The notes under the pieces are model-generated. The model was not told the origin of the DNA. It saw only the letters and a list, made by a program, of their open reading frames with translations, and ran no database searches. A stretch of 38,032 nt of DNA from IMG/VR virus record IMGVR_UViG_3300025138_000112, positions 1 through 38,032 of that record, one strand, 5' to 3'. The position numbers were made by a program, and so were the translations under genes. This document shows, piece after piece, positions 12,080 through 13,975 of this stretch. Every line of letters starts with the position of its first letter. Within the stretch, counting starts at the first letter, position 1. This stretch comes from a virus.

Positions 12080-12108
12080 AGTATACAGTCGTATTTAAAG
12101 ATTGTCAA
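12080..12108 (-). promoter_or_regulatory. Leftward sigma70 promoter for the packaging/head operon
   Basis: Minus strand: TTGACA (12108-12103), 17-nt spacer, TATACT (12085-12080). This differs from consensus at a single base. The predicted start point falls on the terS ATG. The -35 box lies 14 nt from the -35 box of the rightward promoter, so RNA polymerase binding at the two could interfere. Confidence 0.85.
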
Positions 12109-12122
12109 GTTTAAATTAGGGC

Positions 12123-12151
12123 TTGACAAAAGTAGTTTTCGTTGCTATAAT
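12123..12151 (+). promoter_or_regulatory. Consensus rightward sigma70 promoter
   Basis: TTGACA (12123-12128), exactly 17 nt, TATAAT (12146-12151): a perfect consensus promoter. It is preceded by GC, giving the GCTTGACA shared with the other rightward promoters. Predicted transcript start is near 12158, about 875 nt before the first rightward gene, so the RNA crosses the whole left arm of the inverted duplication. Confidence 0.9.
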
Positions 12152-12403
12152 ATTATTGTACCCCCAGCGGTCAATATAGACAATCCCTTGTCACCATCCT
12201 AACAAAACAATCACCTCAAATAAATACTTCCTAGACTATAAAACTTTAAAGGTTTTAGTGTCGGGGCGTTAACTAGTTCTGGTTAATGGTCAATATCTGA
12301 TATTATGTGTAACCATGCTATAGATATATAGGGTAGGGGGAGTGGTCTCCTGCCACCCCCTTAGTAACCTGAGAGAGGTGGTCTCAATAGACCATCAGTG
12401 TCA
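12152..12403 (+). other. Untranslated leader with hairpins, no gene seen
   Basis: No credible coding frame. Small structures are visible: a 13-bp palindrome AATATCTGATATT (12292-12304); a hairpin GGGGG-A-GTGG / CCACCCCC (12336-12360); and TGGTCT-CAAT-AGACCA (12379-12394), a 6-bp stem with a tetraloop. None is followed by a T-run. They lie just outside the left arm of the inverted duplication. Confidence 0.5.
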
Positions 12404-12669
12404 TCCAAACTCTGAAGCTTGGAAGACTTCAAGGCTATCTAAGCTAAAGCAAATCTATTCGATAAACATTCCAGACTTTCTTAGTGAAAAGCTCTTGAAG
12501 TCTACCCAAGTGAACCACTTTTCTTTGTCAAGACCAAGCTTGAAAGCCTTCACTGATGCAGTATCATAACATATCAGAGAGTCTTTGTCAAACTTATAGC
12601 CTAATTACTTTATATGCGTGAAGCAGTGAAGTCTTTCTTTCTCGAAAGCTTTCAACATGTATTCCCCAT
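12404..12669 (-). pseudogene. Decayed inverted copy of the 91-aa early gene
   Basis: The minus strand here aligns by eye with 13229-13535 along its length. Positions 12474-12494 are an exact 21-nt reverse complement of 13430-13450, 12581-12605 match 13306-13330 at 24 of 25 bases, and 12404-12425 match 13514-13535 at 21 of 22. The start equivalent is the ATG at 12669. The frame is broken by indels and stops soon after it. Two frames still show fragments of the intact protein, for example LDKEKWFT (intact: LAKEKRFT) and ELFTKKV. The terminator stem of the intact copy is also decayed. Confidence 0.8.
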
Positions 12670-12870
12670 GCTTAACTAAAAAGATTTATGAACCGTTGAA
12701 CACACAGCACTGTAAAGCCTTCCAAGCAATTAAAGTCAGACACCTCATGGCTATCTAATGTCTCCAACACTCCAATCCCACTAACGATTAAATCTCAAGC
12801 TACCCATCTCAACTATTAAAACCTTGAAAACTTACTAAGTTTCCGTTGTTTGCGTAATCAGCACCACCAT
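12670..12870 (-). pseudogene. Decayed inverted copy of the 63-aa early gene
   Basis: The minus strand from ATG 12870, preceded by a perfect AGGAGG, resembles 13034-13225. GTTTGCG-type and AACAACG segments near the start and ATTAAAGTCAG near 12730 match the reverse complement of the intact gene. A 4-nt deletion in ATTACTTATGC (here ATTACGC) shifts the frame and a TAG follows after eleven codons. It continues directly into the decayed copy of the second gene, so gene order is kept. Confidence 0.75.
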
Positions 12871-12905
12871 TTCCTCCTAACAATTTCTGGTTTACAAGAA
12901 CATAA

Positions 12906-12993
12906 AGATTTTCAAGATACAAATGTTTACAAGTAAAACCTTTTACTACGCTAAAGCTTCATAAAAGCTCAAGCATTTGTATCTTGAAAATCT
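12906..12993. repeat. Perfect 20-bp inverted repeat at the centre
   Basis: AGATTTTCAAGATACAAATG at 12906-12925 is exactly complementary to 12974-12993, with a 48-nt loop. Flanking AACAT/ATGTT and ACAAG/CTTGT extend the stem to about 12894-13013. The loop has its own small hairpins (AGCTT/AAGCT). This is the best preserved part of the inverted duplication and ends about 10 nt before the Shine-Dalgarno of the 63-aa gene. Confidence 0.9.
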
Positions 12994-13033
12994 CCATGTT
13001 TTAATCTTGTAAAGAAATTATAAGGAGAAAATA

Positions 13034-13225
13034 ATGATACTAATTACTTATGCAAACAACGAAACCTTAGAGTTTTCTACAGTTTCAACAGCCGAGATGT
13101 GCACCTTGAGTTTACTCTTAAGTGGCATCGAAGCATTGGGAATTAGATGCAATGATGCATCTGACTTTAACCGCTTGCAAGACTACATTGCTGGCATTCA
13201 ACAATCCATAAATCTTAGGAGATAA
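13034..13225 (+). CDS. Small early protein, function unknown
   Basis: 63 aa, starting MILITYANNETLEFSTVSTA, with AAGGAG 8 nt upstream. Beginning with two short strands and then helices, with no recognisable domain. First rightward gene; followed after 3 nt by the 91-aa gene and then a terminator, so the two make a short early unit. A broken inverted copy exists at 12670-12870. Early position suggests a host-takeover or regulatory role, but nothing in the sequence shows it. Confidence 0.6.
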   Translation: MILITYANNETLEFSTVSTAEMCTLSLLLSGIEALGIRCNDASDFNRLQDYIAGIQQSINLRR

Positions 13226-13228
13226 ACC

Positions 13229-13504
13229 ATGGAAAATACATTCGATATAAACGCTTTCGACAAAGAAAGACTTCAAAGCCCTGCTTCATTCAAACAATGT
13301 CAGGGATTAGGCTATAAGTTTGCCAAAGACCCAAGCACTGATAAAATGAATTGGAGACTGCAAAAGCAGATTCAGGGTTGCTTATATGGTCTTGCCAAAG
13401 AAAAGCGATTCACTTTCAAGAAGGCAAACGAGCTTTTCACTAAGAAAGTCCTCCCGAAGGCTTATTTCGATAAGATAGATTTGTATCTTAAAGAGAATAG
13501 CTAA
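13229..13504 (+). CDS. Small early protein, function unknown
   Basis: 91 aa, starting MENTFDINAFDKERLQSPAS, with AGGAG upstream. Basic and helical, with LGYKFAKDPSTDKMNWRLQK and KEKRFTFKKANELFTKKVLP. No family recognised. It ends just before a strong terminator (13513-13545). A frameshifted inverted copy lies at 12404-12669. The residue pattern left in both frames of the copy indicates that the protein was once under selection there too. Confidence 0.65.
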   Translation: MENTFDINAFDKERLQSPASFKQCQGLGYKFAKDPSTDKMNWRLQKQIQGCLYGLAKEKRFTFKKANELFTKKVLPKAYFDKIDLYLKENS

Positions 13505-13512
13505 CCTTAAAG

Positions 13513-13545
13513 CCTTCCAAGCTACAGAGTTTGGAAGGTTTTTTT
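13513..13545 (+). terminator. Rho-independent terminator of the first early unit
   Basis: CCTTCCAA (13513-13520) and TTGGAAGG (13531-13538) form a perfect 8-bp stem with a 10-nt loop, followed by seven T. It isolates the first two rightward genes from the rest. Confidence 0.9.
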
Positions 13546-13864
13546 ATGTCTATTGTTCCCTTTGAAGACAGGTTACTTTATAATGATGAAGGCTGTTTAT
13601 ATGGGGTTCTAGTCGACCACTCCAAAGAGGTTAATTAAACCTAATTAGGTTAATTTAAGACTCGAGCTTAAGATGGGTCGGTTGGTTGAGGGACGTATTT
13701 AAATTGTTCGGTTGGTTGAGGGAGTATTTAGGTTAAAATACAGCACAAATGTCCTAATTTAGGTAAGAAAACACCCAATATTTACAAATAAGTTTGTATT
13801 TATTTAAAATATATGTTAAATTTATAGTTTTTTTGTTTTATCTTTAATCTTTTACTTTAATATT
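13546..13864. other. AT-rich non-coding region with repeats (origin candidate)
   Basis: No convincing gene; a 30-codon frame from 13546 has no ribosome binding site. The stretch holds a 14-bp perfect palindrome AACCTAATTAGGTT (13638-13651) next to TTAATTAA, a tandem direct repeat (13678-13730), and then more than 100 bp of very AT-rich DNA with T-runs (about 13770-13864). This combination of palindromes, iterons and an AT-rich unwinding-type tract between early units is what a replication origin could look like, but no primase or initiator site is identified. Confidence 0.45.
13678..13730 (+). repeat. Tandem direct repeat TCGGTTGGTTGAGGGA(C)GTATTTA
   Basis: Two units, 13678-13701 and 13708-13730, start-to-start period 30 bp, identical except for one extra C in the first. 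The period is close to three helical turns, so proteins bound to both would face the same side. Confidence 0.85.
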
Positions 13865-13899
13865 ATAAATATATCTTAAGATTAGTGAAACGCTTGACA
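13865..13899 (+). repeat. Upstream promoter element, copy A
   Basis: A 35-bp block beginning ATAAATATATCTTAAGATTA and ending GCTTGACA, repeated at 14401-14435 with 33 of 35 bases identical. It contains the perfect palindrome ATCTTAAGAT (13873-13882), centred about 17 bp upstream of the -35 box, and ends with TTGACA. Confidence 0.85.
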
Positions 13900-13922
13900 C
13901 GATTCTCGGCTTGGGGCATGAT
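13894..13922 (+). promoter_or_regulatory. Rightward promoter, copy A
   Basis: TTGACA (13894-13899), 17-nt spacer, CATGAT (13917-13922, four of six consensus bases). It lies 54 nt upstream of the next gene start and directly after the ATCTTAAGAT element, which may be an operator or activator site. Confidence 0.65.
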
Positions 13923-13975
13923 GGTCGGGTCAGCAAGGGATGTTCCTTGTAAAACAAAGCAACGGAGATAATAAA

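Follow-up and report, generated by a model that had tools for sequence, protein, structure and literature searches.

A predicted phage RNA whose leader carries an antisense copy of its own two genes and follows them base by base

Between the late and early genes of a viral DNA record lies a long inverted duplication, in which a cassette of two genes is faced by a non-coding, complementary copy of itself. The copy lies upstream of the genes, on what is predicted to be the same rightward RNA, and in relatives of this virus it follows the genes base by base, matching even those changes that are synonymous in the genes. We propose that the copy is a giant cis-antisense leader, which would keep the cassette translationally silent until the RNA is opened; this is a proposal that we hold about as readily as we doubt it. 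The phages concerned form a widespread, uncultured marine group, and in their compact genomes, copying both genes of the cassette in antisense costs some 500 bases.

The record is IMG/VR IMGVR_UViG_3300025138_000112, and "the window" here means the whole stretch analysed, positions 1-38,032 of that record (38,032 bases). Its small-terminase protein is 31-53% identical to those of HMO-2011-type phages of Pelagibacter, Roseobacter and Puniceispirillum; at the DNA level, no match to the arm region was found among phage records. Late genes run leftward from 12073 and early genes rightward from 13034, and the inverted duplication occupies the divergent region between them. The features are these:

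12080-12108, minus strand: sigma70-like promoter (TTGACA-17-TATACT) of the small-terminase/late operon, leftward, left of the left arm
12123-12151, plus strand: sigma70-like promoter (TTGACA-17-TATAAT) of the hairpin unit, rightward
12258-12361, plus strand: conserved leader element between the plus promoter and the left arm
12404-12928, plus strand: left arm, a non-coding antisense copy of the cassette, complementary to the right arm
12929-12970, no strand assigned: loop between the arms, 42 bases
12971-13535, plus strand: right arm, holding the leader, ORF1, ORF2 and most of the terminator stem
13034-13225, plus strand: ORF1, 63 aa
13229-13504, plus strand: ORF2, 91 aa
13513-13545, plus strand: intrinsic terminator (CCTTCCAA ... 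TTGGAAGG, then a run of T, T7), read directly from the sequence, which ends the unit

The plus strand therefore reads promoter (12123), leader, left arm, loop, ORF1, ORF2 and terminator (ending at 13545), and the beginning of the left arm complements the terminator stem too. Because the divergent promoters both lie left of the left arm, a single predicted rightward RNA contains both strands of the cassette. The position of the late promoter means, conversely, that late RNA would be without the hairpin, and it rules out a leftward late transcript that spans the hairpin. An earlier note on this DNA, made from the sequence alone, had named a consensus promoter at 12123, and this stands. It recurs left of the left arm, with no more than one mismatch, in 80 of the 80 regions scanned, as well as in one further relative (L177) introduced below. 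The counterpart of the minus promoter likewise has at most one mismatch in all scanned relatives except the L060-L064 clade. An internal promoter in the loop was rejected as a general feature, since the best matches there are on average no better than those in shuffles and are convincing in some clades only.

Aligned over its whole length with the reverse complement of 12404-12928, the right arm (12971-13535) is identical at 420 of 505 positions (83%). The score of this alignment is 485, against a mean of 56 and a maximum of 86 in 200 dinucleotide shuffles, which bears out the large inverted duplication that the earlier note had described. A repeat finder also lists the same collinear anchors that the note had found clear: 12474-12494/13430-13450 (100% of 21), 12581-12605/13306-13330 (96% of 25) and 12404-12441/13498-13535 (87% of 38). 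The gaps in the alignment are mostly bases missing from the left arm, many of a length not divisible by three; read as its reverse complement, the left arm has stops in all three frames. Across 30 representatives, the longest open reading frames are 43 aa in left arms, 43 aa in shuffles, and 93 aa in right arms. With no excess of open frames over shuffled sequence, the left arm is ruled out as a coding region; here too the earlier note, which held that the left copy had lost its reading frames, was right.

The right arm is a different matter. Median dN/dS is 0.36 for ORF1 and 0.12 for ORF2, with synonymous sites near saturation, and by these ratios the right-arm genes are under purifying selection. 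A coding right arm facing a non-coding left arm implies that the right arm changes under coding constraint and that the left arm follows. AlphaFold2 models ORF1 as a b-b-a-b-a fold (pLDDT 93.9) and ORF2 as an all-helical protein (pLDDT 90.6). Neither has a PHROG, Pfam or significant PDB match, and no relatives of either were found in a collection of bacterial and archaeal genomes; that the two proteins have a function is something that we infer. The second gene of the cassette varies by clade, from 113 to 141 aa in L130, L131, L134, L084, L090, L135, L137, L141 and L145, and several of these variant proteins have an AT..Q....L motif like that of ORF2. This variation suggests rapid exchange or divergence of the protein pair.

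Relatives of ORF2 were found on 65 viral contigs, of which 64 have upstream sequence that can be checked. The earlier note had asked whether related phages keep the left arm. All 64 do, each with an upstream arm complementary to its own right arm at 80-92% identity, even where ORF2 identity to the window has fallen to 42%; these relatives are metagenomic contigs only, with many near-duplicates among them, so the counts are not of independent events. A wider profile search added L177, which has the same arms (score 346, against a null maximum of 35) and both promoters. In the most distant clade (L060-L064) the arm measured about 200 bp at first, and about 370 aligned positions under stricter settings. 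Each left arm matches its own right arm far better than it matches the right arms of other phages. Long arms persist in L130, L131 and L134, in which the second gene cannot be recognised as ORF2, and in L120 and L060-L064, in which no ORF1 is recognisable. The arm, then, follows whichever genes are present; the left arm is maintained and is no relic.

How closely the arm follows can be seen by matching every base of the right arm to its partner in the left arm, and then comparing two phages site by site. Where the right arms of two phages differ, 41-67% of the sites are paired in both; since only about 0.75 of positions are paired in each phage overall, compensation is nearly complete. For example, 15 of 26 right-arm differences are paired in both L017 and L018 (which share 90 interruptions of the helix, against 23 expected), as are 43 of 84 between the window and L013, and 79 of 136 between the window and L042. 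Two-sided pair changes number 57 and 142 in two clade alignments, where shuffles reached maxima of 35 and 106, and slid registers maxima of 14 and 49. Pairing is therefore conserved by compensatory change over both the shuffle and the slide controls, as a cis-antisense leader should have it.

The compensated sites fall between shared interruptions that are typically 11-20 nt apart. Lost and kept interruptions show no clustering in tracts in 8 of 12 phage pairs; in the other 4, p is 0.04 or less. Compensation between interruptions so closely spaced, with so little turnover of tracts, makes wholesale recopying unlikely; template switching over very short tracts may contribute to the likeness of the arms. 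Relative to L003-L013 and L177, the loop-proximal half of the window's hairpin (12716-13184, the ORF1 region and the left-arm segment facing it) seems to have been swapped as a block, the distal half in L003 being nearly identical to that in the window. Such an exchange takes both arms and the loop together, and so leaves the pairing intact.

A shorter version of the arrangement is found in relatives with other or diverged cassette genes, where the arms are 80-150 bp long. Its score exceeds that of all 300 shuffles in 10 of the 11 relatives examined (L119 is not convincing). In most of them the short right arm covers the Shine-Dalgarno sequence and the start codon of the first gene. Not so in L135 and L141, whose short right arm starts level with the annotated start of the open reading frame or slightly past it; coverage of the start codon is therefore not universal. 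The window and its relatives thus share what a cis-antisense leader should have, an upstream antisense segment over the Shine-Dalgarno sequence or start of the first gene.

The helix is never perfect. In every phage the left arm departs from the exact complement, and the helix is interrupted throughout, in a style that is specific to the clade: small left-arm deletions in L055, small insertions in L040 and L136, point mismatches in the window and L042. Neither this clade-specific interruption, nor the bias in mismatches described here, nor the short versions in relatives, figured in the earlier reading. The plus RNA of the window has 40 A.C against 2 G.U mismatches (the classes are reversed in the minus RNA), and the plus RNAs of 30 representatives have 668 against 224. 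In mismatch-rich clades, changes in the right arm never left a plus-strand G.U, while clades that use insertions or deletions have no excess of A.C over G.U. An A.C excess without plus-strand G.U is not predicted by a plus-strand helix alone. Explaining the excess takes an added assumption, that the interruptions represent selected breaking of the plus-strand helix.

Sites of the m-type break long helices more evenly than random placement would: in 17 sequences, which are related and hence not independent, the mean z is -1.0 and the Fisher p 8e-7. In addition, helix run lengths are clearly more even than chance in some clades only. Strictly even spacing was accordingly rejected as a general rule; some clades show it, and the clade of the window does not.

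Folding the RNA, a check that the earlier note had suggested, gives a predicted energy of -411 kcal/mol for the plus RNA of the window, with 382 of 413 pairs formed between the two halves, and -563 kcal/mol for the minus RNA. Predicted plus-strand energies differ little between most clades (some -0.33 to -0.39 kcal/mol per base), though exceptional ones reach -0.49; minus-strand energies range from -0.36 to -0.52. Complementarity between the arms peaks at the Shine-Dalgarno sequence of ORF1, whose positions are paired at 85%, versus 75% overall. The single self-antisense RNA that the earlier note envisaged is thus supported by its layout, with a promoter at the left, a terminator at the right and pairing over the Shine-Dalgarno sequence, and it is the regulatory action itself that we infer.

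How such a leader might act can be set out in steps. A single rightward RNA would carry, in its 5' leader, a full-length antisense copy of its two genes. The left arm would be transcribed first, and the emerging right arm would then zip onto it from the loop outward. The Shine-Dalgarno sequence of ORF1 would be covered before anything else, followed by ORF1, by ORF2 and by the stem of the terminator. By default, the RNA would be a translationally silent rod. Selection would hold the arms complementary and would yet break the helix at short intervals, with A.C or other mismatches or with small one-sided bulges. Most likely, these interruptions would keep the rod from becoming an unbroken duplex, prone to destruction by RNase III or impossible to open. 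Expression of the cassette would follow once the rod was opened or the left arm removed, whether by a helicase, by processing, or by a transcript starting past the left arm. The search for a release mechanism found none, an internal promoter being plausible in some clades only. In its most specific form, the idea is of a rod-shaped, nuclease-evading, self-silenced mRNA, whose non-coding 5' half complements its coding 3' half, co-evolves with it base by base, and forms with it a helix deliberately interrupted by whatever type of mutation the clade uses. That fuller picture we consider less likely than not.

The arms might, of course, be alike for reasons that lie in the DNA. Here, the palindrome would be an origin, a packaging or recombination signal, or a cruciform, with template switching at replication keeping its arms alike and with RNA pairing incidental. 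We regard this as unlikely, if deserving of serious attention. Template switching is a known way of maintaining palindromes and hairpins, and it can create them and their compensatory changes (PMC8794818). Mitochondria of Nematomorpha have coding palindromes, perfect repeats within protein-coding genes (PMC6649704). The phage arms resemble both, as long inverted repeats that involve coding sequence and whose arms are kept alike; they differ from the Nematomorpha repeats in having one non-coding arm and a helix with interruptions along its whole length. The site would suit a DNA element, lying between divergent operons beside the small terminase gene and adjoining an AT-rich stretch with direct repeats (13668-13723), with DnaA-box-like sites in some relatives, and interruptions would make a long palindrome tolerable as DNA. 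However, a cruciform forms the hairpins of both strands, so that strand-asymmetric classes of mismatch are unexpected from it. Regional mutation bias does not explain the A-G/C-T asymmetry either, and is ruled out, since the negative GC skew of the left arm is absent from the leader and from the untranscribed downstream flank. Compensated sites, moreover, are closely flanked by shared interruptions, only a few bases apart, and for the most part do not form tracts, and the short arms centre on the start of the first gene. Finally, the large palindrome is absent from the cultured phages HTVC103P, 104P, 115P, 033P, HMO-2011 and CRP-2/-3/-235, which share a homologous small terminase and the same gene order and divergent layout.

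The strand asymmetry would be explained directly if the functional RNA were the minus strand, a leftward transcript with a long hairpin in which the A-G/C-T differences are tolerated G.U pairs. In mismatch-rich clades the differences are indeed G.U on that strand (40 versus 2 in the window), and a minus-strand G.U is the usual intermediate at compensated sites. Predicted minus folds are also the more stable, and an even placement of sites could break the DNA palindrome while keeping the minus pairing. Such a transcript needs a promoter, however, and no conserved minus promoter was found right of the right arm across the relatives scanned, the promoter of the late operon being left of the arms. 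A perfect consensus sigma70-like minus-strand promoter, some 180 bases beyond the right arm and aimed into the hairpin, is seen in L054 only. Neutral G.U pairs should accumulate in clades that use insertions or deletions as well, yet these have no excess, and transversion mismatches are common, contrary to strictly kept minus pairing. We therefore consider a functional minus-strand RNA rather improbable.

In another reading, processing would release the left arm as an antisense RNA with a trans effect on cassette mRNA, whether that of the phage itself or that of a superinfecting one. Such an RNA would resemble c4 of phages P1 and P7, which is encoded ahead of the genes that it covers, within one operon (immI, c4-icd-ant), is cut from a longer transcript and occupies ribosome-binding sites of its own operon (PMC5320573, PMC8198154); the left arm is likewise upstream within the same predicted transcript. 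Left arms, however, fit only their own right arms or those of very close relatives, and adjacency makes pairing in cis unavoidable. No processing signal or site was identified, and the Rfam c4 motif has no match in the window or in four relatives. We find trans action quite improbable, and the absence of the c4 fold means that the left arm is not a member of the c4 family. The remaining alternative, that an old inverted duplication has left a neutral relic or that the arms are an artefact of assembly, could draw on a left arm that is non-coding and full of indels, and receives almost no credence from us: it is refuted by the comparison of relatives, where site-by-site compensation and complementarity to the own arm occur in every contig that could be checked, so that the "decayed copy" and "relic" of the earlier note were misnomers for an arm that tracks its partner base by base, and the artefact fails against a layout recurring in 64 IMG/VR contigs from many metagenomes and in L177.

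For the cis-antisense leader that we prefer, c4 is nonetheless instructive. As in c4, the antisense lies upstream, on the same transcript and with the same polarity as the genes covered, and would occlude the ribosome-binding site of the first gene. The c4 RNA, once processed, measures about 77 nt, has a defined fold of three stems and is complementary to its target only in short loops; the phage arm, by contrast, is 440-680 nt long, copies both genes and the terminator, and co-evolves base by base. By this analogy the left arm may work like c4, its nearest functional parallel.

Sequestering leaders of bacteria and phages are normally tens of bases long. In IS10 and IS50, such a leader sequesters the ribosome-binding site and silences the transposase in readthrough RNA. 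The phage leader is similar in that upstream sequence pairs with the Shine-Dalgarno sequence or start, and in that RNA initiated upstream would go untranslated. In leaders of the IS10/IS50 type, however, the stems are short and local, whereas here stems of 80-150 bp are already the short version, and those of the long version run across whole genes. Animal hpRNA genes arise by inverted duplication and give a long imperfect hairpin that tracks its target by compensatory change, as the phage hairpin does; here, though, one arm is the target mRNA itself. The hpRNAs feed RNA interference which, to our knowledge, bacteria do not have. Rfam matches of a miRNA-like kind in the loop-proximal helix are far below gathering scores, and were set aside as chance matches to a long hairpin.

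No description of long phage hairpins of this kind was found in the open-licence literature. Though short forms of the device are familiar, we found no account of one on this scale, of one that copies complete genes, or of one that tracks its genes base by base. The phages offer a rare natural experiment on the evolution of a long RNA helix, with mismatches, insertions or deletions according to clade. If the silencing is real, phages would have a new means of storing a message or timing its use, and one could test directly how they shield long duplex RNA from host RNase III. If the self-silenced rod is real, it would be a mode of gene control undescribed for bacteria or phages.

Two stretches flanking the arms have features of their own. 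Upstream, the leader element at 12258-12361 is strongly conserved, as GTTAACTAG...CTGGTTAAT and then TATAGATATATAGGGTAG.GGG..TGGTCTCCTGCC. It recurs in most hairpin-bearing loci and in L084, L090, L100, L118, L119, L137 and L143, relatives with only the short hairpin included. Its covariation is weak and Rfam gave no match to it; it could be an RNA or a DNA element. Downstream, 13545-13940 is an AT-rich stretch with a direct repeat (13668-13693 and 13698-13723), and several relatives have DnaA-box-like sites (TTATCCACA) in the matching region; a replication origin adjoining the hairpin is possible. A 30-codon open frame (13546-13638) starts right after the T-run of the terminator, and is not kept in L055. 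At the same post-terminator position, the motif TTTTTTTATG recurs among relatives.
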